From: Desulfovibrio piger
Lineage (GTDB): Bacteria > Desulfobacterota > Desulfovibrionia > Desulfovibrionales > Desulfovibrionaceae
Direction: 5' to 3'
Length of the DNA stretch: 64,000 nt
NCBI RefSeq assembly: GCF_951793255.1
Contig: NZ_OX636706.1
Location: 2,698,501 to 2,762,500 of the forward strand
In this document: piece by piece, positions 1,204 through 46,478 of the stretch
How the letters are laid out: each line of letters begins with the position of its first letter
How positions within the stretch are numbered: the stretch's first letter is position 1
The notes under the pieces: generated by a model
Seen by the model: the letters and a program-made list of their open reading frames with translations, nothing else
Database searches by the model: none
What the model was told of the DNA's origin: nothing
Made by a program: the position numbers and the translations under genes

Positions 1204-1965
1204 ATGACCAAGACAACGGAACGCCATCAGGCCCTGCTGCACATGCTCAACGCGCGCGGCTATGCGACCATCGACGAGCTCACCAAATGTTTTTCCGTGA
1301 CCCCGCAGACCATCCGCAAGGATATCAATACCCTGGCCGGACAGGGCAAGGTGCAGCGGTTCCACGGCGGTGTCGGCATGCCGCTGAGCACGGAGAACAT
1401 CCTTTACGAGCAGCGCAAAAAGCTCTTCCTGCCTGAAAAAAAGGCCATCGCCCAGATGCTGGCCAAACATATCCCCGACGGGGCCTCCATCTGCATCAAC
1501 CTGGGCACGACCACCGAGGAGGTCGCCTATGCCCTGCTGGGGCACAACAACCTGAGGGTGCTGACCAACAACCTCAACGTGGCCGCCATCATGGCCCGCA
1601 ATCCCAACTTCGACGTGGTGGTGGCCGGCGGCACGGTGCGGCATCACGACCACGGCATCATCGGCCCCAGCGCGGAGAATTTCATCCGGGAATTCCGGGT
1701 GGATTACGGCATCATCGGCATCTCCGGCATCGACCAGGAAGGCAACATGCTGGACTTCGATTACAGGGAGGTCTCGGTGGCCCGGACCATCATCGAATGC
1801 TCGCGCCGGGTCTTCCTAGCCACGGACAATTCCAAATTCGGCCGTTCCGCCATGGTCCGGGTGGCCAATGTCTGCGATATCGAAGCCGTGTTCTCCAATG
1901 CCCCGCTCGAGGAGCACTGGCAGCACATGCTCCAGGAAGCCGGGACGGAACTGTATCTGGTCTAG
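1204..1965 (+). CDS. DeoR/GlpR-family transcriptional repressor
   Basis: A 253-residue DeoR-family regulator. The N-terminal HTH (residues about 6-60) holds the family signature around TIDELTKCFSVTPQTIRKDI, with GKVQRFHGG closing the wing. The C-terminal DeoRC sugar-phosphate sensor domain (about 75-235) shows the INLGTTTEE phosphate-loop motif, TNNLNVA and GGTVR. Family members are usually inactivated by a phosphorylated sugar or polyol. AGGA lies 7 bases before the ATG. Its divergence from the TRAP receptor, with palindromes between them, suggests it controls that uptake system and itself. The effector is unknown. Confidence 0.9.
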   Translation: MTKTTERHQALLHMLNARGYATIDELTKCFSVTPQTIRKDINTLAGQGKVQRFHGGVGMPLSTENILYEQRKKLFLPEKKAIAQMLAKHIPDGASICINLGTTTEEVAYALLGHNNLRVLTNNLNVAAIMARNPNFDVVVAGGTVRHHDHGIIGPSAENFIREFRVDYGIIGISGIDQEGNMLDFDYREVSVARTIIECSRRVFLATDNSKFGRSAMVRVANVCDIEAVFSNAPLEEHWQHMLQEAGTELYLV

Positions 1966-2050
1966 CCGCATCCCGGATATGGGCGGCAAAACGCCAGATC
2001 TTCTCTGCGACCGCCCCAAGCCACGGCCTGCCGAACTGCCTGGAAACCGC

Positions 2051-2072
2051 TTTTGCCCGCCGGCCGGCAAAA
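2051..2072. terminator. Stem-loop after the DeoR-type gene
   Basis: TTTTGCC (2051-2057) pairs with GGCAAAA (2066-2072), with an inner GCCGGC. The A/T ends would make it a terminator on either strand. It is weaker than the hairpin at 2186. Confidence 0.4.
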
Positions 2073-2185
2073 AAACAGCTTCCCTGCAGAGCATTTCTCC
2101 AGTGCCCCGGCAAAGGACACACTGCCGGGCAATATGGCCTGACGCCAGTGAGCGCCCCTGTTCAGTTCCCCCCAAAATGGTAACG

Positions 2186-2231
2186 AAAAAGCCCCGACGC
2201 TTCCGCAGATGAAGGAAGGCCGGGGCTTTTT
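2186..2231. terminator. Bidirectional intrinsic terminator
   Basis: AAAAAGCCCCG (2186-2196) and CGGGGCTTTTT (2221-2231) form a GC stem with T-runs on both strands. It separates the convergent DeoR-type and NhaC-type genes. Confidence 0.85.
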
Positions 2232-2360
2232 ACATACAGGACACTGCCGGGAAAAATTCTCCACCAGATGCCGGGACTGCATACGACAGGGCAGAAAAAA
2301 CACGTGGAAAAGGACGCGGCCTCCTGCTCTTCCCTGCCCGACAGTCGCCGGGATACCGTC

Positions 2361-3638
2361 TTAGCGGCGCCGCAGCAGCATGTCCGTCAACGGCACCATA
2401 TACAGATAAAAAGCATAAGGCAGGCACTCCGGTCCCACGCCCATGATGGCGCAAGGAACGCTCCCGGCGATGCTCCAGGGGATGATGGCCGCCAGCAGGA
2501 CGATGCCGTTTTCCAGCGGCAGGACCATCTCCTTCCCGTTCTGCCAGAGAGGGGCGCACAGCTGCTTCGTCAGCATGATGCCGAGCGTCTGGTTGCAGCT
2601 CACGGCAGCCACGGGCAGGCCTGCCAGCACCGTGGTCCGAAAGGCCCCCAGCCGTAAGGACAGCCGCTTGCAAAGCGAAGAAAGGCCATCCAGCAGACCG
2701 GTCGCCTCCAGAAGGCCCGCATAGGCCGAAGTCAACAGGACGATGCCCGCCACCTGTGCCATGGAGAGCAGGCCGCCCCCCGCCAGCATCTCCATGCCCG
2801 CCGGAGGCTCATAGCCGAACACCAGACAGCGCAGCAAGGCAGCCGGTGACATCTGCTGGACAGCCAGAGAGACCACGCATCCGGCAAGGATACTGCATGC
2901 CATGATTTTTTTGACATCCCAGCGCAACAGCAGGGGGACCAGCATGAAGACGGCCGGCAGCAGGGCCCGGGCATCCAGCACCAGCCCGTCGGCAAACAGA
3001 CCGTCCACATGCGGCAGGCTCTCGGCCCGTGCCGACGGCAGCAGGACGTAGGCCAGGCAGACCAGAAAGAAGGGCAGCAGGGACGTACGCCACATGAGCC
3101 GTACGTTGTCATAGATGGACGTCCCTGTCAGGGCGCAGACCAGCGCCGCGCTGGACGACATGGGCGAACTTCGGTCCCCCACATAAATGCCGCTCATGAC
3201 CGCTCCGGCCGTCAGGAGCGGATCGAGCCCGGCCGTGCGCGCCAGCAGCATGAAGACGACGCCCAATGTACTGGCCGTGCCGAACGAGGTCCCAAGCAGC
3301 AGACTCAGCAGGCTGCACAGCAGGAAGACCCATAGATGAAAATGGGCAGGATCCACCCAGGGCAGGCAGTGGTGGATGATGTAGGGGATGGTCCCGGCCG
3401 AACGCCAGACCGCTGTCAGCATACCGATGAGGACGAAGATCTTCAGGATGTTGCCGATGGTCCGCACGCCCCTGCCGCACAGGCCCACGATCTCGCGGGG
3501 CCGAAAGCCCAGACGGAAAGCGTGCCCGGTAAAACACAGCAGTCCGAAGGCCAGAGCCCACAGCAAGGATGCGCCCGTGACGATGCACAGGGCCAGCCCA
3601 CCAAGAAACAGCGATATGACGACGGCGTTCATGGACAT
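2361..3638 (-). CDS. NhaC-type Na+/H+ or metabolite antiporter
   Basis: A 425-residue polytopic membrane protein with about 11 hydrophobic segments. It carries the NhaC-family landmark GDRSSPMSS followed by a hydrophobic run (around residues 150-160), and a second, similarly placed NQTLG motif in the C-terminal half (about residue 345). Family members exchange Na+ for H+, or malate for lactate with Na+. No neighbour defines the substrate. The gene stands alone between terminators. The Shine-Dalgarno is weak (GGAAT), but the ATG at 3638 gives the expected amphipathic N-terminus. Confidence 0.8.
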   Translation of the reverse strand: MSMNAVVISLFLGGLALCIVTGASLLWALAFGLLCFTGHAFRLGFRPREIVGLCGRGVRTIGNILKIFVLIGMLTAVWRSAGTIPYIIHHCLPWVDPAHFHLWVFLLCSLLSLLLGTSFGTASTLGVVFMLLARTAGLDPLLTAGAVMSGIYVGDRSSPMSSSAALVCALTGTSIYDNVRLMWRTSLLPFFLVCLAYVLLPSARAESLPHVDGLFADGLVLDARALLPAVFMLVPLLLRWDVKKIMACSILAGCVVSLAVQQMSPAALLRCLVFGYEPPAGMEMLAGGGLLSMAQVAGIVLLTSAYAGLLEATGLLDGLSSLCKRLSLRLGAFRTTVLAGLPVAAVSCNQTLGIMLTKQLCAPLWQNGKEMVLPLENGIVLLAAIIPWSIAGSVPCAIMGVGPECLPYAFYLYMVPLTDMLLRRR

Positions 3639-6564: not shown

Positions 6565-7494
6565 GTGGATACGCGCAGCATCGTCGTCATCAAGACCATC
6601 CTGGAAGAAGGCAGTTTCCAGAAGGCCGCGCAGCGCCTCAACTGCTCTCAGTCCACTGTGACCTTTCAGGTGCGCCAGCTCGAGAACGAGCTTTCTGTAC
6701 GCCTTTTCGAGCGTCTTGGGAGGCGCATGGTCTTCACCCCTGCCGGCAAGAGCATCCTGCCTCATATGGAAGCTATCCTGCATTCCATGCAGGCCATCAC
6801 GGCATGCAACGACCCTGCGTCCCTGCACGGGGAGCTGCGTGTGGCTGTGGCGGAATCCCTGCTCTCCTACAAGCTCCATGCCCTGCTCGGCGATTTCGTA
6901 GAGCGGGCTCCGGCTGTAAAGCTCCAGCTGCACAGCCTCAATTGTCACGACATCAGGGAAGGCATCCTCTCCGGCCAGTATGATCTGGGGGTCTATTATG
7001 ATGTGGGCGGACATCCGCACACGCTGGAAGTACTGCCGCTCGGCCAGGCAAAAGGGATCATCGTCGCCTCCCCCCTGCTCGCTCCCGGGCTCCGGGACTT
7101 CGATACGCCCCACCAGAGGAAAGAGACCAGCTTCATCATCAACGAGCCTCGCAGCATCTACAGGGAACGTATGGAAGCCCACCTTCGAGCCAGGGACATC
7201 CTGTTCCGCAACACCATAGAGCTTTGGAGCATCGAATCCATCAAAAAGACCGTGGCTGCCAACCTGGGGGTCTCCTTCCTGCCGACGTTTGCCGTAGAGC
7301 AGGAACTGGCCGCCGGGAGCCTGGTAGAGCTGCCGGCACGCATGTCCGGCCGCCAGGTCCAGGCCATCTGCGTCTGGCACAAGAACAGAGAAAGCACGCC
7401 CGCCATGCGCCTTTTCAGGGATCTGCTGCAAGCTTCCGCCCTGTTCCCGATGTTGATTCATGGCGTAATAACCGAGGAGATAAAAGTGGGATAA
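6565..7494 (+). CDS. LysR-family transcriptional regulator, 3' end altered by prophage insertion
   Basis: A LysR-type regulator. The N-terminal winged HTH (residues 1-60) includes GSFQKAAQRLNCSQSTVTFQV, and the LysR substrate-binding fold follows (about 85-290). The start is GTG at 6565 with GGAGGGG upstream. It probably regulates the divergent LysE-type exporter. The prophage starts at 7454, inside the last codons. Without it the sequence reads ATG TAA after codon 296, so the native protein ends there. The present frame runs on into phage DNA and adds 13 residues (LIHGVITEEIKVG). This small tail is unlikely to destroy function. Confidence 0.9.
   Translation: MDTRSIVVIKTILEEGSFQKAAQRLNCSQSTVTFQVRQLENELSVRLFERLGRRMVFTPAGKSILPHMEAILHSMQAITACNDPASLHGELRVAVAESLLSYKLHALLGDFVERAPAVKLQLHSLNCHDIREGILSGQYDLGVYYDVGGHPHTLEVLPLGQAKGIIVASPLLAPGLRDFDTPHQRKETSFIINEPRSIYRERMEAHLRARDILFRNTIELWSIESIKKTVAANLGVSFLPTFAVEQELAAGSLVELPARMSGRQVQAICVWHKNRESTPAMRLFRDLLQASALFPMLIHGVITEEIKVG
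7448..7453. repeat. Target-site duplication CGATGT, left copy
   Basis: Six host bases immediately before the phage left end. The same six occur at 46479-46484 after the right end. Mu-type phages usually make 5-bp duplications, so one base may be coincidental. Confidence 0.8.
7463..7473 (+). repeat. Left-end transposase-binding repeat GCGTAATAACC
   Basis: This 11-mer starts 9 bp inside the left end. Its perfect inverted copy is at 46436-46446 near the right end. ATAACC recurs close by (about 7491-7496). It is the probable binding site of the MuA-like transposase. Confidence 0.6.
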
Positions 7495-9586: not shown

Positions 9587-10762
9587 CTACGGCTGTACCT
9601 GCCGCACGATATCGGCGTCGACGAGGTCAAAGCCAAGTTCCGCCGCCAGATTCATGGCGGCTATGGCAAAATTGCTGATGGCCAGCGGGTAGCCAAGATA
9701 TACTCCGGCGGAATTGAGCCCGCGTGCCACGATCAGCTGGTCATGCAACTCCTCGATCCCGTCCGGGGAAAAAACATCCTCCAGGCAGGCGCCCGCCCTT
9801 TGGAAGCGGAAGGCGAGAAAGTCCCCGGGCTGCTTGATGGGCGGCAGCTCCACCACATCGCAGCGTTGCACCACCTCGCGCACGTCGCTCTGGGTGCTGG
9901 AGAGCTTGTCCCTGAGTTCGGTCTGCCCGATGAGGATGATGGACAGCAGGCGGCGCATGCCGTCCTTGAGTTCCCAGAATCGCTTGAGGGCCTTCAAGGT
10001 GTGCATGTGCAAGTCGTGGGCTTCTTCGATGACGAGGCAGTGCCGGAAGCCCGCACGGCTGGATTCCACCAGCACCTTGTGCAGCTTGCGGGCACGCATC
10101 TCCGGGCTGGACGGCACGCCGGTGCCGGGCGAGACGGTGGAGATGATGGCCTCGGCGATGTGCGGGGCGCGCAGCGGCTTCCCGTTCTTTTCCGATTCCG
10201 CCATGCTCAGGGTGTACGGTTCCACCACGATGACGGATTCCCCGTTGAGGCGCAGACGCTCCACCAGTTCCTCGCGCAGCGTGGACTTGCCGGAGCCGGA
10301 TTCACCAACCACGGCCAGGAAATTGCCGTTGACCGCGGCATCGTGCATGGTCTCACGCACAAAGCGGCTGTCCGGGTTCAGGTAGACATCCTCCACGCCT
10401 TGCGGATCTGCGAAGGGATCGCGCAGCAATTTGAAGTGCTGGCGGGTGGACATCTTGAGGTGCTGTTTACGGATGATCATATCGTTTTCCTCTTGGCTGC
10501 TTTCGCCATTCTTTTCTTTTACGTCCGTTTCTTCGTCTCTGAGCGCCCATTCCGCATCCAGACCGTTCGCGCCCGATTCTTCCAGCAGGGAGATCAGCGC
10601 ATTCTTAAGTCCGGTCCAGTCTGTTTTGGGCGGCAGCCCCTTGCGCAACAATATATTGATGGTCGCGGGGCTCACATTGCAGGCGGCCGCCGCCTGCCGC
10701 TGACTGATTTTATGGACGGCAAACAGGTTTCTGAGCGCCGCCGGATCTGTTAATTGGCGCAT
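9587..10762 (-). CDS. Transposition ATPase, MuB-like AAA+ protein with N-terminal HTH
   Basis: A 391-residue partner of the transposase. Residues 1-45 form a Cro-like HTH (ISQRQAAAACNVSPATINILL). The AAA+ domain carries Walker A GESGSGKST (153-161) and Walker B HCLVIEEAHD (about 241-250), with the arrangement seen in ExeA/TniB-type proteins. MuB-type proteins bind target DNA, stimulate the transposase and give target immunity. The start overlaps the transposase stop by 13 bases, implying coupled translation. Confidence 0.9.
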   Translation of the reverse strand: MRQLTDPAALRNLFAVHKISQRQAAAACNVSPATINILLRKGLPPKTDWTGLKNALISLLEESGANGLDAEWALRDEETDVKEKNGESSQEENDMIIRKQHLKMSTRQHFKLLRDPFADPQGVEDVYLNPDSRFVRETMHDAAVNGNFLAVVGESGSGKSTLREELVERLRLNGESVIVVEPYTLSMAESEKNGKPLRAPHIAEAIISTVSPGTGVPSSPEMRARKLHKVLVESSRAGFRHCLVIEEAHDLHMHTLKALKRFWELKDGMRRLLSIILIGQTELRDKLSSTQSDVREVVQRCDVVELPPIKQPGDFLAFRFQRAGACLEDVFSPDGIEELHDQLIVARGLNSAGVYLGYPLAISNFAIAAMNLAAELGFDLVDADIVRQVQP

Positions 10763-12555
10763 GCCCGTCCCCCTTCAAAGCGGATTACGGTCGCGGGACG
10801 CGGTGCAAAGCGCTCCTGAATGGCCCCGGCCAGCTCTTCCAGCGCCCCTTCCGGCACCTGCACGGGGAAGCGCTTGCGCACCAATGCCATGCAGGCAGCC
10901 GGACCAGCGCTCCATACCTCGCCGCACAGAGCCTTGAGGCGCTGCGCCGCCTGTGCGTGACTAAGCGGCATCGGCGCCGCCTGCGGTGTGTCCACGGGCA
11001 ACGCTTCGCCCTTCCGGCGCAGGTATTGCGGGGCCTCCTTCACGTCCGCCATAATGTCCAGACCGGCATACGGCACACGGTTGTGGGCCTTATGGGCCTT
11101 TTCGGCCTCTTCAAGACTGTCCGTCCCGTAGGCGCGCATCTTGATTTCCTTGAGGGCCGTTTCCGCCGGGGTATCAGGCGCACGGCGGAAGCTTTCGCCG
11201 ATGACCGGAGCTGTGATGTCACGCCCGGCAGCGTCCTTCTCGATGGGCTGGACTTCAAAGCGCAGCTCTTCGCCGCTCGGGAGCTCCTTGATGACCGTGA
11301 TGGCCGGAGCCCGGAAGGGATTGAGGCGCACCACCACGCTGTCGCCCACGCACAGGCCGTGGTAACCCAGCTCGCGCAAGTCGTATTCATGGACTCCACA
11401 AGCCCGGGTATCCACGCTGATGCGGAACTTGCCGTCGATCTTGCGGCGCACGTCCTGCCAGTGGGCGATGGCCTCCAGCACGGAGCGATCCACGGTCTTG
11501 AGCTGTCCGTCCGTGATGCCGATCCAGAGGTTGTTCCGGGGGCGTCCCGCACGCGTCAGAACGGCGTGGGCGTTGAAATGGCGTCGCCACGCATCCGCCT
11601 GTCGCTGGAGCTCTTCAATGGACGGGGTCTCCATGAAGCGCAGCCGGGACTCAAACCCCTTTTCTACCAGATTTTGCAGGCATTCTACCGTGCCCTTGGC
11701 GCGGGGATTGCCCGCTTCATGCGTCAGGGGGATGACACTAAGGTTATCGAGAAAGTCCCGCACAAGGGAGGAAAGGTTGCCGCTGCCCTTGTCCATGAGC
11801 AGCTGGACAGGGACGCCGTGCAGAGGGTCTCTTTCGCCACGATCGCTTATCGCTTCCACCAGTGTCCTGATGACCCCTTGAGCGTCTTCTCCCTTGGCCT
11901 GTTCGTAGCGCAGGTAAAACGCGTCGCTGAAGTGATCCGCGACGATGTAACGGACGACCCTCTGCCCGGCGATCTCCACCAGTTTCCCGGGCTTGTCCTT
12001 GTTATAGATTTTTTCGTCCAGAAGACGCACACCGCCGCCCTTAAGGCGGTAGAGGACGCAGACAGAGGCGTCGATCTCCCATGTGTGGTTGGGGTGCAGG
12101 CTGCGCAGCTCCGTGGCGGGGCGCGCCGCTCCCAGCTGGTCAGGATGGCAGGCGTAGCGGCGCATGGCGCGGGAAAGTGTCGAAGCGCTGGGCATGATGA
12201 CTTCTCCGGTCTCCGGGTTGACGATGCCGAGGCCGTTGGCGGCCAGACGCTCGCGGGCGGCCTTGATGGACGTGATCCGCTTGCCGGTCTGGCGCTCGCT
12301 CAAGTGGGAAAGTCCCCCGACAGCAAGTGCCAGCTCCCGGTCGACGCAGGTCTCGCCCTTGTCCGCCCGCGTTTTGCGTCCGCTGCTCCAGCCCGTATGC
12401 TTTTTGAGAAGGGCGTACACGCTCTTTTTGCTCTTTCCCAGCGTGGCGGCGGCGCGTTCCATGATGCGGCCGCGCTCACCACCAACGGCGGGAGCCGCCG
12501 CAAGTTCCTTTGCCGTTTCGTGCAGAAAATCTTGCTGTGCGGGCGTGAGAGCCAT
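10750..12555 (-). CDS. DDE transposase, MuA-like
   Basis: A 601-residue rve-type transposase that joins the phage ends to target DNA. N-terminal DNA-binding helices (about 1-140) precede the catalytic core, with D162 (WEIDAS), D255 (LMDKGSGN) and E291 (KGTVECLQ) as the DDE triad. A beta-barrel domain follows (about 380-450), then a C-terminal tail expected to contact the AAA+ partner. The length is close to MuA (663) and BcepMu-type transposases. It acts on the terminal repeats at 7454 and 46478. Confidence 0.93.
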   Translation of the reverse strand: MALTPAQQDFLHETAKELAAAPAVGGERGRIMERAAATLGKSKKSVYALLKKHTGWSSGRKTRADKGETCVDRELALAVGGLSHLSERQTGKRITSIKAARERLAANGLGIVNPETGEVIMPSASTLSRAMRRYACHPDQLGAARPATELRSLHPNHTWEIDASVCVLYRLKGGGVRLLDEKIYNKDKPGKLVEIAGQRVVRYIVADHFSDAFYLRYEQAKGEDAQGVIRTLVEAISDRGERDPLHGVPVQLLMDKGSGNLSSLVRDFLDNLSVIPLTHEAGNPRAKGTVECLQNLVEKGFESRLRFMETPSIEELQRQADAWRRHFNAHAVLTRAGRPRNNLWIGITDGQLKTVDRSVLEAIAHWQDVRRKIDGKFRISVDTRACGVHEYDLRELGYHGLCVGDSVVVRLNPFRAPAITVIKELPSGEELRFEVQPIEKDAAGRDITAPVIGESFRRAPDTPAETALKEIKMRAYGTDSLEEAEKAHKAHNRVPYAGLDIMADVKEAPQYLRRKGEALPVDTPQAAPMPLSHAQAAQRLKALCGEVWSAGPAACMALVRKRFPVQVPEGALEELAGAIQERFAPRPATVIRFEGGRACAN

Positions 12556-40385: not shown

Positions 40386-41189
40386 ATGAAATACGCGCCC
40401 CCCATCGGGCAGGAAGCCCAGGGCGAAGAAGCCCACTATGTCGACGGCAACCCGGAACTCGGCATCCTTGGCTCGCCCGTACCCGCGGCTGCCATTGAGC
40501 AGGGCCAGCGGGAGCTTTTGCACGTCATCAAACAGGCAGGCCTCACGCCCAGCAGCGAAGACCTGACCCAGCTTTTCCAGGCCATCGGCAAGCTGATCAG
40601 CAAGCGTGTGCCCATCGCCAGCAAGGAGACCGCCGGTATCGTCAAACCCGGGGCCGGGTTGCAGATAGGGGAAGACGGCACCCTGGACGTACTGGTCTCC
40701 GCCGTATTGCCCGGCACGGTAGTGGCCTTTGCCGGTTCCTTCGGTGGTGAGGGAAACCGCCATCCCATACCGCTGGGCAGCTCGGAACCGGATACGTCCT
40801 GGGTCTTGTGCGACGGCGGCAGCGACGGCAAGGGCGGCACCGTGCCCAACCTGCTGGGCCGTATGATTCTGGGCGCGTCCGATGCCCACCCGGCCGGCTC
40901 CACTGGCGGCTCGGAGACGCATTCACACAGTCTGTCCGGCACTGTGGGTGAGACCACGCTCACGGTGGAGCAGATGCCAGCGCATGGCCATAGTTATATT
41001 TCCCGCGCATCAAGCCGCGACTGCGGATATGCAAGCGGTTCCCCCATGTTCTGGCAGAATACTACCACAGCAAACACCGGCAATGCTGGTGGCTCTCAAT
41101 CCCACACGCACACGCTGGACGGGGCATCTGGGGAAGCCAACGGCCTGCCCCCGTACTACGCGCTGGCGTGGATCATGCGGACGGCTTAA
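40386..41189 (+). CDS. Tail fibre with phage collar domain, expressed version of the shufflon
   Basis: A 267-residue receptor-binding fibre. The N-terminal part (MKYAPPIGQEAQG, ELGILGSPVPAAAIEQ, QAGLTPSSEDLTQLFQAI) attaches to the baseplate. The middle is the tail-collar domain (PGTVVAFAG, WVLCDGG, TVPNLLGRMILGA, GGSETHSHS). From 40932 (residue 183, LSGTVG) the last 85 residues are one of four interchangeable tips. All end with GGSQ-H-H and LPPYYAL. The junction contains the 14-bp site repeated three more times downstream. Confidence 0.92.
   Translation: MKYAPPIGQEAQGEEAHYVDGNPELGILGSPVPAAAIEQGQRELLHVIKQAGLTPSSEDLTQLFQAIGKLISKRVPIASKETAGIVKPGAGLQIGEDGTLDVLVSAVLPGTVVAFAGSFGGEGNRHPIPLGSSEPDTSWVLCDGGSDGKGGTVPNLLGRMILGASDAHPAGSTGGSETHSHSLSGTVGETTLTVEQMPAHGHSYISRASSRDCGYASGSPMFWQNTTTANTGNAGGSQSHTHTLDGASGEANGLPPYYALAWIMRTA
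40932..40945 (+). repeat. Shufflon crossover site 1 (inside expressed fibre gene)
   Basis: CTGTCCGGCACTGT, read in frame as L-S-G-T-V. Identity with site 2 extends over about 34 bases with one mismatch. Confidence 0.8.
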
Positions 41190-41228
41190 TCCGGCAGAAG
41201 GCGCGGCCTGCGGGGGGCATGACCGGGT

Positions 41229-41242
41229 CTGTCCGGCACTGT
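41229..41242 (+). repeat. Shufflon crossover site 2
   Basis: CTGTCCGGCACTGT in direct orientation relative to site 1, at the head of cassette 2. Confidence 0.8.
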
Positions 41243-41486
41243 GGGCGAGACCACGCTCACAAAAGAGCAGATGCCCAGCCATACGCATGGTTATCGCAAG
41301 GTGACGGCATGGTATGGCTGGAACGGTACAAATGATGGCAATGACTGCAAACCGCCGAGCGACGGACAGCCCACGGATGCCACAGGCGGTTCCCAAGCGC
41401 ATGCACACGCGCTCTCCGGGGAGGCCGGGAAAGCCGATACACTACCGCCGTACTACGCCCTCTCCTTTGTTATGCGGTGCGCATAA
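41229..41486 (+). pseudogene. Silent tail-fibre tip cassette 2
   Basis: An open frame of 85 residues from the crossover site to the stop, the same length as the expressed tip, with no start codon at the site and no ribosome site. It begins LSGTVGETTLTKEQMPSHTHG and ends LPPYYALSFVMRCA. The variable middle (YGWNGTNDGNDCKPPSDGQP) is unrelated to tip 1. Not broken: it is a stored donor, so pseudogene here means unexpressed. Confidence 0.85.
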
Positions 41487-41712
41487 TAAAGGAGAGCACA
41501 TAGTACGGGGGGAGGTTGGAAGCATCGTCCAAAGTTCCCTCCAGGGCATGGCTATGGGGTTGCGATCCGCCTGTTGCATCAGTCGTTTGTTTGCCGGAGT
41601 TCGCACTGCCCTTGGCTTCTGCAATATCGCCATAAGTGCCCTTGTTGAACGTATGAGTATGGCTTGGCATCTGCGCCACGCTCAAGGTCGTGCTGCCGAC
41701 AGTGCCGGACAG
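41470..41712 (-). pseudogene. Silent tail-fibre tip cassette 3 (inverted)
   Basis: An 80-residue tip on the minus strand: LSGTVGSTTLSVAQMPSHTHT, a variable middle (YGDIAEAKGSANSGKQ) and an LPPYYVLSFIMRTA end. Its stop region overlaps that of cassette 2 by 17 bases (41470-41486), where the two 3' ends form a shared palindrome. Confidence 0.85.
41699..41712 (-). repeat. Shufflon crossover site 3
   Basis: CTGTCCGGCACTGT on the minus strand, inverted relative to sites 1 and 2. The next base is C where the other sites have G. Confidence 0.78.
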
Positions 41713-41750
41713 GCTGGCCGAAGGCCCTGCAAGCTACGTCAGCCGCCGGA

Positions 41751-41999
41751 TCAGGACGTCCGTATAATGAACGAAAGGGCGTAATACGGGGGCAGGCCGT
41801 TGGCCTCGCCAGACGCCCCGGTCAGATCATGGGTGTGGGGTTGGGAGCCACCGGTCGCAGAGGTATTTCCCGACTTGGTATTGACCCACTGTCGATAGCG
41901 GGTCCCCTCGCCGTTGTATTCGGTCGGGATATTGATGCCATGCCCATGGCTGGCCAGCTGCGCCACGGTGAGCGTCGTGGCGCCCACAGTGCCGGACAG
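41751..41999 (-). pseudogene. Silent tail-fibre tip cassette 4 (inverted)
   Basis: An 82-residue tip on the minus strand: LSGTVGATTLTVAQLASHGHG, a variable middle (NIPTEYNGEGTRYRQWVN) and GLPPYYALSFIIRTS. Its C-terminal third is closest to that of the expressed tip (both have GASGEANGLPPYYAL). It is in frame for joining to the fibre body at site 1. Confidence 0.85.
41986..41999 (-). repeat. Shufflon crossover site 4
   Basis: CTGTCCGGCACTGT on the minus strand, followed by GGG as in sites 1 and 2. It marks the outer edge of the cassette cluster. Confidence 0.8.
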
Positions 42000-42039: not shown

Positions 42040-42261
42040 ATGTGGTTTGAATTGATGCCGCACGGAATGCGGGAAATAACGGACGATGAAATTGTGGCCA
42101 AGGCAGAGCAAATCAAGGCGCATCGCGCTTTACAAGGCGGAGCCGGTCACGAGACGACGCCCCCGACACTCTACCCCTGGCAAATGCCTTCTCATTCTCA
42201 CACCATAAACCGCTGTGGAGGTTGCTACCATGCCCACTGTTACTGTTGTCCCCTCCGATAG
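42040..42261 (+). CDS. Small hypothetical protein after the shufflon
   Basis: A 73-residue frame: MWFELMPHGMREITDDEIVAKAEQIKAHRAL, then a segment QMPSHSHTINR that resembles the start of a tail-fibre tip, and a Cys-rich end overlapping the next gene. The first half is protein-like and lies where Mu-like phages carry fibre accessory genes. The QMPSHSH part may be a remnant of a fifth cassette. Confidence 0.5.
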   Translation: MWFELMPHGMREITDDEIVAKAEQIKAHRALQGGAGHETTPPTLYPWQMPSHSHTINRCGGCYHAHCYCCPLR

Positions 42262-42754
42262 CCTGATCATCGTCGATGGCGCGGCCCTCGTTTTCCCGTT
42301 TGACGCCCCGACAAATCTGCATGCCCTGCAATGGCGTGGGGGCACTGGCCATACCGAGTGGACGGATGGCCCCAACCAGCCACTGACTGCTGAGGATTAT
42401 GACGAGCAGGTCGCGCCGTTCGTGAAGCTCTGGCAGGCGGAAAAAGCACGCTTGGAGAAGAAAGCCGCCGAGGAGGCTGCCGCCCGTGCGCTCCCCGATG
42501 CCAAGTCCGCCAAGCAAAGCGAGATCCAGAACGGCTACGACGCCGCTCTGGCGGCCTCCCTGACCATGCCCGCCGCTTCTCCTACGGCGCAGGACGTGAG
42601 CATCGGCGCGGCCCTGTTGGCTGTAGATGATGCGGAGGGGCTGGCGTATGTGCAGGCTCTGCATGCCGCCCGCCGTGACGAACTGCTGGCCGCCGTGGAG
42701 GCCGCCGAGACCGTAGAGGCCGTGCAGGCCGTGGTCGTGGACTATGACGTATAG
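42230..42754 (+). CDS. Putative tail fibre assembly protein
   Basis: A 174-residue protein with a beta-rich N-terminus (SLIIVDGAALVFPFDAPTNLHALQWRGGTGHTEWTDGP) and a helical K/A/E-rich remainder (WQAEKARLEKKAAEEAAARAL). The layout resembles fibre assembly (tfa or DUF4376-type) proteins that follow fibre genes. GGAGG precedes the ATG at 42230. It should help fold all four fibre versions, since it lies outside the invertible region. Confidence 0.6.
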   Translation: MPTVTVVPSDSLIIVDGAALVFPFDAPTNLHALQWRGGTGHTEWTDGPNQPLTAEDYDEQVAPFVKLWQAEKARLEKKAAEEAAARALPDAKSAKQSEIQNGYDAALAASLTMPAASPTAQDVSIGAALLAVDDAEGLAYVQALHAARRDELLAAVEAAETVEAVQAVVVDYDV

Positions 42755-43472
42755 CCTGGCGGGACAGACCATCACCGCTCCGGACACGGGCGGGCATGGC
42801 CTGGATATGAGCAACGGGCAGGACTGGCTGGTGGAGGATTGCCTCATCGACCTGTCGGCCTGCCCGCTGGATCAGCTGGATGAGGCTGTGGGCGTGGTAT
42901 GGGGCAGCAGTGCCGTTTTTCGACGCTGTGTCATCCGGGGCGCGGGCAAGTTGGTGCTGTGCGGCTCCGGGGATACGGATAAATTGAACGTTGAACGCGG
43001 CAAGACCGTCACCTTCGAGGGCTGCGTTCTTGAGAACTTCGGGCGACGGGGACCGGAAGCGCAGTCCGGCATGCGGGTCATCCTGCAGGACTGCCTGATC
43101 CGCAACTGGGGCGCTCCGGACCGCTTTGACGTGCGGTCCTTCGGGGCTTGGGCGCATCACGGCGGCAGCATCGAGGCCGTGGGCTGCGTCTTTGACCAAT
43201 CCTGTCTCTGGCGCGGCTGGCATATCATGGTGCGGGACTGGCTGGCCCACATCGGCCAAAGCTGGAACGACGAAGGCCCGCGCGGCCTGTTGCGTCCGGC
43301 CAACTGGCTGCCCGGTGTCTGCCGGGGGCTGGTGGCCACAGCGGGCGGACAGGTCCGGGCCGAGAACTGCCATGCCACACGCTGGTGGATACGTCTTGAA
43401 GGGCACCGTGGCCCGCATATGAGCCGCAGCCAGGCGCAGGCGCTCATGGCCAGACTGGAGAACATGCTATAG
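42744..43472 (+). CDS. Right-handed beta-helix protein (pectate-lyase-like fold)
   Basis: A 242-residue protein with repeating short strands: WLVEDCLIDLSA, AVFRRCVIRGAG, VTFEGCVLENFG, VILQDCLIRNWG, IEAVGCVFDQS, VRAENCHATRW. This is a single-stranded beta-helix with cysteines stacked at the same rung position. Such folds occur in tailspikes and polysaccharide lyases. It lies between fibre assembly and recombinase genes, so a second receptor-binding or surface-degrading tail part is possible. No catalytic residues could be assigned. Confidence 0.7.
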   Translation: MTYSLAGQTITAPDTGGHGLDMSNGQDWLVEDCLIDLSACPLDQLDEAVGVVWGSSAVFRRCVIRGAGKLVLCGSGDTDKLNVERGKTVTFEGCVLENFGRRGPEAQSGMRVILQDCLIRNWGAPDRFDVRSFGAWAHHGGSIEAVGCVFDQSCLWRGWHIMVRDWLAHIGQSWNDEGPRGLLRPANWLPGVCRGLVATAGGQVRAENCHATRWWIRLEGHRGPHMSRSQAQALMARLENML

Positions 43473-43492: not shown

Positions 43493-44383
43493 ATGGCAAC
43501 AAAACACAAACGGGCGACCATGACGGCCCGCCAACTGGCAGAGGACTATCTGGCCCACCAGATCACGCGGGACGTGACCCGCACCAGTACCCGGCATCAC
43601 CTCAACCAGCTGCTGACCCTGTTCGGGGGCTGGCAGGCCCGCCGGGTGGGCGCGGCCCAGATGCAGGAGTTTTTGGCCGCCCAGAAGGCGCGCGGCGTCA
43701 TGGCCACCACAGCGCACCACCGCGTCCGCCTGTGGCGTACCGCCCTGGCCTGGGCCGTGGAGACGGGCCGCCTGCCCGCGTCGCCTCTGGCGGGTTTCCG
43801 GCTGCATCGTCCGAAGGCTAGGCGCATTGATCCGCCCACGCGGGCCGAGGCCGTGCGTATGTATAAGGTAGCCGCGCCGCATATCCGGCGTGTGATCGTC
43901 CTGGGCATGGCGGCCGGGCCGCGTATCGGCCCCAGCGAGCTTTTCCGGCTCACTTGGGGGGACGTGGAACTGGCGGCGGGCTACATGAGGATGCCCAACG
44001 CTGCCAAGGGGGCCCAAGAAGACAGCAGGATCGTCCCCATCCGGGACGACATCCTGCCCCTGTTGCGGGCGTGGAGAGGGGAAGACGAGAAACAGGGCTG
44101 CCCGTGGGTCATCCACTGGCAGGGCCGCCCTGTGCGCTGCATAGGCCATGCCTGGCATCAGGCCCGAAAAGCGGCGGGCATCACGCGGCGCATAACGCCT
44201 TATAGCCTGCGCCATGCCATGCCCACGGAAGCTCTTGAGCATGGCGCGGATGTGCAAGCGGTGGCTGAGGTCATGGGCCATGCTGATCCCACCATGCTGC
44301 TGCGTGTCTATCAGCACACGCGCTACAGGCTGCGGAAACAAGCGGTCAATGCCGCACCCGGCCTGCGGCTGGACAAGATTTGA
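43493..44383 (+). CDS. Tyrosine recombinase, probable shufflon recombinase
   Basis: A 296-residue phage-integrase-family enzyme. The N-terminal SAM-like core-binding domain (about 10-95) precedes the catalytic domain with R144 (AGPRIGPSEL), K172, R240 (YSLRHAM), H263 (MGHAD) and nucleophile Y273 (RVYQHT). Tyr237 replaces the first histidine of the HxxR motif, a known natural variation. GGAGG precedes the ATG. The phage integrates by its DDE transposase, so this enzyme is free for another task. Its place 1.5 kb from four inverted and direct sites in the fibre gene makes it an Rci-like tip-switching enzyme by inference. Confidence 0.85.
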   Translation: MATKHKRATMTARQLAEDYLAHQITRDVTRTSTRHHLNQLLTLFGGWQARRVGAAQMQEFLAAQKARGVMATTAHHRVRLWRTALAWAVETGRLPASPLAGFRLHRPKARRIDPPTRAEAVRMYKVAAPHIRRVIVLGMAAGPRIGPSELFRLTWGDVELAAGYMRMPNAAKGAQEDSRIVPIRDDILPLLRAWRGEDEKQGCPWVIHWQGRPVRCIGHAWHQARKAAGITRRITPYSLRHAMPTEALEHGADVQAVAEVMGHADPTMLLRVYQHTRYRLRKQAVNAAPGLRLDKI

Positions 44384-44555: not shown

Positions 44556-44774
44556 ATGAAACAGGAGCAACTTACCGAGATCCGTTGCCGCCATTGCGGC
44601 AAACTGCTGGCTAAGGCTTGGGCAATCGAAGTGTATCTGGAACACAAATGCTCCCGCTGCGGGGCGTATAACATTCTGCGGGCCACGCGCCCCAATTCGG
44701 AACATCCAGAGCGTCCACAGGAGCATTGTCATGCTGAAAGTGGGCAGCCTGTTCAGCGGAGCCGGTCTGTGTGA
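44556..44774 (+). CDS. com: Com-like zinc-finger translational activator
   Basis: A 72-residue protein of the Mu Com type: IRCRHCGKLLAKA and HKCSRCGAYN supply four cysteines for one zinc, followed by a polar tail. In Mu, Com binds the mom mRNA and opens its start for translation. Here the 3' end overlaps the start of a C5 DNA methyltransferase by 44 bases, as com overlaps mom in Mu. The ATG at 44556 has no strong ribosome site. Confidence 0.85.
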   Translation: MKQEQLTEIRCRHCGKLLAKAWAIEVYLEHKCSRCGAYNILRATRPNSEHPERPQEHCHAESGQPVQRSRSV

Positions 44775-45570
44775 CCTTGGCCTGAGCTGGGCGGGATTCA
44801 GGCATCAATGGTTTTGCGAAATCGACCCGTTCTGCCGGATGGTTCTCGCAAGGTACTGGCCGGACATTCCTCTTTATGAGGATGTGAATACTCTGAAAGG
44901 CTCTGAACTGCCGCCCGTGGACGTGCTCTGCGGCGGCTTCCCCTGTCAGGACGTATCCCAGGGAGGGAAACATGCGGGAATCAAGAAGGGCACGCGCAGC
45001 GGCCTGTGGCTCGAATACGCACGACTCATCGGAGAAATACGTCCCCGGTACGTCATCATCGAAAACGTCCGGGGCTTGCTCGCCAGGGGAATTGAGATCG
45101 TCCTGCAAGATTTGGCCGAGATCGGGTATGATGCGGAATGGGAAGTGCTTTCCGCAGCCGCCCTTGGTGCCCCTCATCGGCGCGAACGCGTGTTTGTTGT
45201 TGCCTTCCCCCACAGTAACGGCCCTGACCCAGAGCGTAGGCTTTTATCTCCGCTCCAAAGAATCGTGGGAGAAGTCGACCAACCTTTCGGCATACTTGCT
45301 TGGCTTGGAATACGGATTGTCGGGCAAAGCCGCGAAGCCGTCCGGCACGCATATCCCGGCCCCGTCCTTTATTGAGTGGATGATGGGCGTGCCGGAGGGC
45401 TGGACTATCCCGTAAATATCCCGCCCGTTCCCCGGCGGGTTCTTCCTGAATGGCGCAGCCGCCTGAAGGCTCTGGGGAACGGCATCCTGCCCCAGCAGGC
45501 ATATGCTGTGGGAGCCTGCATCATGGCGCGCGAGGGAAGGCGCGTTTCCCCCATGCCGTTTGACTCCTGA
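44731..45570 (+). pseudogene. C5-cytosine DNA methyltransferase, apparently frameshifted
   Basis: The first frame (44731-45375, 214 residues) holds motif I (LFSGAGLCDLGLS), IV (GGFPCQDVS), VI (IENVRGL) and VIII (RRERVFVVA). The following target-recognition part is in another frame (LLPSPTVTAL to FIEWMMGVPEGWT, ending at 45415), and motif X (RLKALGNGILPQQAY) is back in the first frame after a stop, up to 45570. Two compensating shifts, near 45200 and 45412, explain this. As read it lacks the end of the SAM fold and should be inactive, unless the reads contain errors or recoding occurs. It was meant to methylate phage DNA against host restriction. Confidence 0.75.
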
Positions 45571-45588
45571 GAACCGAGAGTTCCAGCG

Positions 45589-46365
45589 ATGAGGGCCACG
45601 AGCCCCGTTTTGAAGAAGAAATATATGGATTCTCACTTTCAAACGGACGGTATCTCGCTCTATCAGGGGGATGCCCTGCGCGTCCTCACAACCTTGCCTG
45701 AGGCAAGCGTGGACGCAGTCCTCACCGATCCGCCGTATTCCAGCGGAGGCGTCACTCTGGGGGCACGACAGGCCGACCCGGCACAAAAATATCAGTCCAG
45801 TGGAACAAAGAAGCAATATCCGCCCATGCTGGGCGATTCCAAGGATCAGCATAGCTGGATCATGTGGTGTACGCTGTGGCTCGGCGAATGCTGGCGCATT
45901 GCCCGCGAAGGTGCACCGCTCATGGTGTTCACCGACTGGAGGCAGCTTCCGGCCCTGAGTGATGCCGTGCAAGCCGCAGGGTGGAAATGGCTGGGCATCG
46001 TGCCCTGGGACAAGCGAAGTGCCCGCCCGCAAATCGGCAAGTTCCGCCAGCAGTGCGAATATGTGCTGTTCGCCGTCAAAGGGCGTTTCATTGCCCATAC
46101 GCGAACCTGCTTGCCTGGCGTGTATGGCTACCCTGTGATTGCCGCCAGAAAAGTGCATCTGACCAGCAAGCCGGTGGAGCTCATCGAAGACCTGCTGGCT
46201 GTGGCGGCTCCACAGGCAACTGTCCTGGACCCGTTCATGGGCGGTGGGAGCGTGGGCGAGGCATGTATCAGGACTGGCCGGAGCTATATCGGCATGGAGC
46301 TGTCGCCAGAGTATTACGAAATCAGCCGCAGTAGGCTGACAGCCGTGCTCGCTGAACGCACATAG
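45589..46365 (+). CDS. DNA methyltransferase, N4-cytosine/N6-adenine type
   Basis: A 258-residue beta-class methyltransferase: catalytic motif IV TDPPYSSGG (about residue 47) comes before motif I DPFMGGGSVGEA (about 213) and the ELSPEYYEISRSRL end. It is complete. ATG 45589 is given; ATG 45625 (MDSHF) is the alternative and neither has a strong ribosome site. It is the last phage gene before the right end. With com and the C5 enzyme it forms an anti-restriction DNA-modification block. Confidence 0.88.
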   Translation: MRATSPVLKKKYMDSHFQTDGISLYQGDALRVLTTLPEASVDAVLTDPPYSSGGVTLGARQADPAQKYQSSGTKKQYPPMLGDSKDQHSWIMWCTLWLGECWRIAREGAPLMVFTDWRQLPALSDAVQAAGWKWLGIVPWDKRSARPQIGKFRQQCEYVLFAVKGRFIAHTRTCLPGVYGYPVIAARKVHLTSKPVELIEDLLAVAAPQATVLDPFMGGGSVGEACIRTGRSYIGMELSPEYYEISRSRLTAVLAERT

Positions 46366-46446: not shown

Positions 46447-46478
46447 TTCCTCAAGGGGATTTTTAACGGCGCGCATCA

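Follow-up and report, generated by a model that had tools for sequence, protein, structure and literature searches.

The stretch of DNA analysed here (the window, 64,000 nucleotides, C1:2698501-2762500) is part of a single-contig, 3.08-Mb genome of Desulfovibrio piger and contains a prophage extending from about 7.45 to 46.48 kb. Two minus-strand genes encode a predicted DDE (rve) transposase, MuA-like by position (10750–12555; PF00665 with 24.3 bits and an IS481 model with 3e-12, both below the cut-off), and an AAA ATPase, MuB-like by position (9587–10762; PF13401 (AAA_22) with 63 bits, above the cut-off), and the plus-strand genes include terminase, portal, Mu-like protease, sheath, tape-measure, baseplate J, and Mu Gp48. 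The right end of the prophage (CGGCGCGCATCA, 46467–46478), ending in ...GCGCATCA, adjoins different DNA at another locus of the same genome (locus B, see below). The proposed left end is at 7454, and both proposed ends (TG...CA) are flanked on their outer side by the 6-bp repeat CGATGT, a match for which the estimated chance expectation is about 0.05 in the 3 kb searched. The preliminary description had termed this prophage Mu-like, a label that a weak transposase match, the ATPase, the Mu-named structural genes, and the flanking repeat favor but do not settle. The proposed left end lies near the 3' end of a gene for a LysR-type regulator (6565–7494, plus strand).

Behind the tail-fibre region, the plus strand carries genes for a tail-fibre assembly-like protein (42230–42754, scanned as 42233–42754; phrog_4912, tail fiber assembly, 3e-7), a right-handed beta-helix-like protein with a weak match (42744–43472; PF13229, 23.3 bits, below the cut-off of 25.9), a tyrosine recombinase of 296 aa, the proposed tip invertase (43493–44383; PF00589, 2.3e-20), and, as prophage cargo, a C5 cytosine methyltransferase (44731–45375; PF00145) and an N6/N4 DNA methyltransferase (45589–46365; PF01555). 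The order S-U-gin-com-mom of phage Mu resembles this succession of fibre, assembly protein, recombinase, and DNA modification, and Mu carries mom where methyltransferases or Mom sit in these prophages. The cargo beside the recombinase differs, with the two methyltransferases (44731–46365) in the window and in one half of locus B, and Mom (PF25680; L009 2268–3074, minus strand) in the other half.

The expressed tail-fibre gene (40386–41189, plus strand, 267 aa) comprises a 182-residue body (40386–40931), a recombination site, an 85-residue tip (tip 1), and the stop codon. No Pfam family could be assigned to the fibre; its best match among the PHROG tail and tail-fibre families was 1.1e-18, and the profile of its C-terminal part matches the PDB tail-fibre chains 9qgo (3.4e-12) and 9nxk (2.1e-11). 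An AlphaFold2 model of the fibre (42 rows) was set aside for its mean pLDDT of 41. Exact copies of the 14-mer CTGTCCGGCACTGT are found at four places in the window and nowhere else in it, two in each orientation: site 1 within the fibre gene (40932–40945, plus strand; 13-bp core 40933–40945), site 2 (41229–41242, plus), site 3 (41699–41712, minus), and site 4 (41986–41999, minus). When up to three mismatches were allowed, the window held 14 matches, the four exact ones and ten with 2–3 mismatches, against a mean of 7.9 in shuffled windows, where 14 was reached in 2 of 100. Across the 3.08-Mb genome the exact 14-mer has eight copies, confined to three clusters, and the reversed 14-mer gave no match in the whole genome.

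As the preliminary description had stated, the site is shared by the fibre gene and three silent segments and reads LSGTV in frame at all four copies, each opening a complete tip with conserved ends and a different middle (85, 85, 80, and 82 residues for tips 1 to 4). The silent tips each start at a site: tip 2 (41229–41486, plus strand, 85 aa), tip 3 (41470–41712, minus, 80 aa), and tip 4 (41751–41999, minus, 82 aa). Tips 2 and 3 converge and their 3' ends overlap by 17 bp (41470–41486), so together they make up one double-headed segment. Variation at the fibre consists of whole tips exchanged at fixed sites. A simulation of the window locus by inversion only reached 12 arrangements, four each expressing tips 1 and 4 and two each expressing tips 2 and 3. 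The proposed four-tip system holds in that inversion alone can bring every one of the four tips to the body, but the overall pool of tips is far larger (see below). A further stretch (42160–42220, plus strand) codes for WQMPSHSHTI, which resembles a tip start without a site and is perhaps a fossil tip.

When the sites of this locus are aligned with those of the other loci described below (36 sites, 13 loci), the core is T-x-TCCGGCACTGT (TxTCCGGCACTGT), where x is constant at each locus and varies between loci; two of the 36 sites carry variants inside the 13-bp core. Position -2 is T at all 36 sites, though it lies outside the search pattern. The base at -1 (x) agrees in 37/37 within-locus pairs, against 0.41 between loci, and none of 400 label shuffles matched this, a comparison that overstates independence as the loci are related. 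It is G at the window locus (locus A), B, C, G063a, and V111, A in G018, and T at the remaining loci. Position -3 varies within loci (16/37 pairs agree), as do positions further upstream, and at +11 the agreement is 20/37. The site of the preliminary description is thus an exact 14-mer at the four window copies, but across loci it becomes a 13-bp core with one locus-specific base and no fixed 14-mer. The site listing has 40 entries and the alignment 36, the matches that start no tip (L102, L106), an assembly duplicate (L104 8988), a copy of the L111 contig (L109), and the single sites of L105 and L110 having been omitted, and the variant sites L111 9671 and L112 2430 added; among the 36, L103 7254 is followed by N, opens no tip, and is 6.8 kb away from its partner site.

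Among 40 tip starts defined by protein sequence (SGTV..[TV]TL, the L104 duplicate included), 36 code SGT as TCC GGC ACT, whereas the nearby TTL has 16 different codings, which argues for a constraint at the DNA level. The body copy of the site often reads ACAGT-NTxTCCGGC-ACTGT, so that TxTCCGG is central in a short dyad. From this dyad and the within-locus identity, TxTCCGG would be a 7-bp strand-exchange overlap, with ACTGTSGG as a conserved right arm and a degenerate left arm, and a base that is constant at each locus and variable between loci is as expected of such an overlap. Both the locus E and the G018 recombinase share 92% identity with that of the window, yet x is T, A, and G, respectively, which fits a base required for matching rather than for binding. 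With the pattern TNTCCGGCACTGTSGG, which would miss other site sequences, at least two clustered sites were found in 6 of 79 genomes of the genus, and clusters in none of 209 other genomes of the family, six of which had one match each. These single sites in other genera were taken as chance, given the 0/209 clustered genomes. Outside the six cluster genomes, the genus gave 23 single or scattered matches; a reversed control run on all 79 genomes gave 14, so little weight can be put on a single match.

Four further loci with the site core, which bring the total to five, came to light when the genome was searched with the site and with the window region. A body is present with two tips at locus C (2.916 Mb) and with four at each of loci D (0.174 Mb) and E (0.488 Mb), and locus B (1.781 Mb; L009, C1:1776000-1788000) is bodyless, with two tips between two outward-facing right halves. 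The comparison between D and E is the most informative. Their fibre bodies are identical over 457 bp (0 mismatches), and a two-tip block of 488 bp lies in opposite orientations with 485/488 identical positions, whereas a same-orientation alignment matches in just 322 of 515 columns. The block is located directly behind the body in D and behind one extra tip in E, and the next tip block is identical (289/289 bp). It follows that an inversion with its ends at the sites occurred; it was not the sole change, since each locus has one extra tip with respect to the other, so that segments were also gained or lost. A different kind of exchange is seen between C and the window: the expressed tip of C (L010 5997–6236) matches silent tip 3 (41470–41709, minus strand) in 119 of the first 120 bp and then diverges, so that only the first half of this silent tip sits on the C body. 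Such mosaic 3' halves indicate that homologous recombination acts too.

Several minor features of these regions can be mentioned. The halves of locus B come from different shufflon phages, and the locus looks like a deletion between two prophages; its right flank has only partial matches to csd1 (cas8c), and cas7 was not found in the genome. Two other fibres (L025 2614–4113, plus strand, and L026 4428–5918, minus strand) begin their tip with a similar sequence, LSGSTGATTL, but lack the site, and no spare tips were seen within the stretches fetched. A gene that is macro-domain-like by eye stands behind the fibre assembly gene in L010 (7038–7592), L024 (6298–6864), and L031 (9419–9973), always on the plus strand.

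Outside this genome, G018 (another species, one contig) matches the window at 94% over a 5-kb stretch that extends to 35 bp beyond site 1, and the match resumes at 91% from the assembly gene onward, with different tips in between. Near the site, over the last 450 bp, the identity between both bodies is 60–81%, so a portion of the body was swapped too. L033 (Desulfovibrionaceae A70_62, contig MGBC000161.6, which we take to come from the mouse gut catalogue) has on one scaffold the body joined to a tip P and a second body copy, 328 bp, mismatch-free and in the opposite direction before an N gap, joined to a tip Q. Two orientations of a locus would lead an assembler to such a double junction, although it could also be an artefact. 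In D. piger ATCC 29098, 568 N occupy the place of the tips, between the body and the assembly gene.

A similar turnover of tips is apparent among fibre proteins. From the best 120 of 2016 homologues, a ranking that favors the window body, 116 were parsed and four had no parsable junction; the body was at least 95% identical in 113 of the 116. The tips on these 113 bodies form 37 clusters at 75% identity, and in 53 of the 113 the tip is less than 60% identical to tip 1. Two of the silent tips of the window are found fused to this body elsewhere, tip 3 in P0106 (99%) and tip 4 in P0089, as a 93% identical version. Tips recur in different phages.

The recombinase gene (43493–44383) is full length and located 1.5 kb downstream of the tips. 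Its product carries R144, K172, R240, H263, and Y273, which we take to be the catalytic residues of tyrosine recombinases, and the usual HxxR motif reads YSLR. Loci A and E each have a full-length recombinase of one family downstream, B is flanked by one on either side, and homologues stand downstream of the loci L101 (92%), L112 (80%), L104 (72%), L109/L111 (71%), L034 (65%), L032 (89%), and L031 (93%), recurring beside fibres only 36–80% identical to that of the window. No homologue was present in the stretches of C (12 kb), L100, and L110; the nearest further PF00589 domain to C is about 8 kb beyond (2924589). At locus D the gene is cut down to its N-terminal third (L023 3882–4184, minus strand), despite its tip block being inverted with respect to E, and G061, of the same species and with a three-site locus, gave no recombinase match at E<=1e-40 genome-wide, its contig ending beside the locus. 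Broken relatives of the enzyme are found in L032, L035, L036/L103, L058, and L111. In L058 (G072; 1498–3415) a split recombinase (50% and 59% identity) accompanies tips that open at TCTGGRACTGT, suggesting that site and enzyme changed together.

Among the 79 genomes of the genus, clustered sites and close recombinases go together (5/1/1/72; Fisher p 1.6e-6, and 1.7e-5 without the own genome), where close means at least 390 bits, a cut-off picked after the table had been seen; at the looser E<=1e-40, 31 of the 79 have a relative. In NCBIfam the matches of the enzyme, to XerC/D and relatives, all scored far below cut-off, and the 20 listed matches in a phage collection (of 103 records) are all under 30% identity. 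Recombinase patterns found only distant matches in IMG/VR (21% identity), and the DNA-site pattern found three contigs, two of them carrying a recombinase at 71% and 80%. For a recombinase from an N. vulgaris plasmid (44.6%), which was set aside, the incomplete annotation shows no tail genes.

The elements established above (sites, tips and orientations, one past inversion, and tip turnover) very likely belong to a tail-fibre shufflon, in which one body can be joined to four tips at 13-bp cores and the adjacent recombinase would invert them. This reading, already put forward in the preliminary description, is strengthened by the inverted block at D and E beside identical bodies, the 37 tip kinds among the best 120 of 2016 homologues, the scaffold with two body-tip junctions, and the tyrosine recombinase recurring at such loci. 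The recombinase at 43493–44383 would pair two inverted sites and exchange strands in TxTCCGG, with body-tip junctions falling within TGTCCGGCACTGT, and the inversion would bring another tip in frame with the body. The resulting fibre would have a different variable region and likely bind another receptor. Each tip may thus bind a different host receptor and tip switching may widen the host range. Sister loci without an intact recombinase would be served in trans.

Some of the data could also be accounted for by ordinary homologous recombination between prophages, the 13-bp sites being merely conserved coding sequence without any programmed inversion. The tips do have common conserved 5' and 3' ends, the C and A tips match at 119/120 before diverging, tips recur in different phages, and a portion of the fibre body was swapped between A and G018. 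Nevertheless, the silent copies hold TxTCCGG exactly while -3 and beyond vary, synonymous codons are nearly fixed within the site and free just outside it, and the D/E block is inverted with its ends at the sites beside identical sequence, all of which makes this explanation very improbable. It is also improbable that a genuine shufflon is inverted by some other enzyme (host XerC/D or another integrase) with the adjacent gene as a passenger. There are 22 PF00589 domains in the genome to choose from, and C and D lack an intact neighboring recombinase; against this, homologues recur in the same place beside fibres 36–80% identical to that of the window. Moreover, the prophage is predicted to integrate by its transposase, which leaves the recombinase free to be the invertase and otherwise without evident use. 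We infer that it is the inverting enzyme.

A shufflon that was formerly active and is now frozen in this genome would agree with the single arrangement per locus in a single-contig genome, with the truncation at D, and with B as a rearranged bodyless remnant. We consider it rather unlikely, as the window recombinase is full length with its catalytic residues present, the two copies of the D/E block have just 3 differences in 488 bases, and a relative has two junctions on one scaffold. As far as can be judged from sequence, the shufflon is real and probably still active.

Phage tail-fibre tips are also inverted in the G segment of Mu and in the Min system of p15B, and the Gin system has two states, in contrast to the four tips and 12 inversion states here. 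Double-headed segments are also a feature of the R64 shufflon. Gin and Min are described as serine recombinases (PMC6109161), and the Gin, Min, and Cin systems differ in this from the tyrosine type (PF00589) found here. The closest resemblance is to the Rin shufflon of Bifidobacterium dnaJ2 prophages, which has a receptor-binding protein whose N-terminus is constant, spare tips for its C-terminus that each stand behind a short asymmetric repeat (rix, 11 bp), an adjacent XerD-like tyrosine recombinase, and a recombinase-less second phage locus proposed to be served in trans (PMC6109161); Rin is reported for Eggerthella lenta, too (PMC8778435). The window locus shares a constant fibre body with several alternative C-terminal tips, a short asymmetric repeat opening each tip (here a 13-bp core, 36 sites), and an adjacent PF00589 recombinase of XerC/D-like length (296 aa), a length that by itself suggests absence of an arm-binding N-terminal domain. 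The differences are the site (TxTCCGGCACTGT here, rix TTCCCTAACCC in PMC6109161), the hosts (Actinobacteria there, a Mu-like Desulfovibrio prophage here), and the arrangement, with tandem tips there and double-headed segments plus a locus-specific site base here.

In R64, the sfx sites have a variable left arm, a 7-bp core, and a conserved right arm, and Rci swaps the C-terminus of pilV (PMC11852207). The present sites would have the same anatomy, the 7-bp core being our inference, and here too the C-terminus of a surface-binding protein is swapped. However, R64 varies a pilus tip on a plasmid rather than a phage fibre, and the additional C-terminal domain of Rci has no counterpart in the window recombinase, which ends 23 residues after Y273. 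As to inversion without deletion, as in R64, D and E differ by one extra tip each besides their inversion, so that segments are also gained or lost. For D. piger prophages, Mu-like groups and retroelements have been described in an article whose main text has 0 occurrences of shufflon, inversion, and recombinase (PMC12724379). We found no description of this system in the open-licence literature on Desulfovibrio prophages or shufflons, as far as the available portions of those sources extend (PMC12724379, PMC8778435, PMC3414803), and general searches of the open-licence literature gave no such report.

Tyrosine-recombinase tip shufflons were thus already known from Bifidobacterium and Eggerthella prophages; what sets the present case apart is the Mu-like prophage, a chromosome with five loci, the large pool of tips, and an overlap base that differs from locus to locus. 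These findings extend such tip shuffling from phages of Actinobacteria to Mu-like prophages of gut Desulfovibrio. More tentatively, and in our view doubtfully, the loci could form a genus-wide network of tip exchange with an address code, where one recombinase family and one site serve all members and base -1 (G, T, or A) sets the compatibility group. Prophages would shuffle their own tips, these would drift into a common pool of dozens, prophages lacking an intact recombinase would be driven in trans by other prophages of their cell, and events between direct sites would delete the chromosome between prophages, an idea suggested by locus B lying beside a broken cas operon.

The site anatomy gives a testable prediction on the strand-exchange overlap. 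A D. piger prophage induction study reported that cross-infections gave no suitable host (PMC12724379), and tip switching is one possible reason for this failure. The 37 tip kinds on one body (among the best 120 of 2016 homologues) represent a natural library with which tips could be linked to receptors. Loci of this kind may be assembled unreliably, as the 568 N of ATCC 29098 illustrate, so that the fibre genes in databases may each show one of several states.
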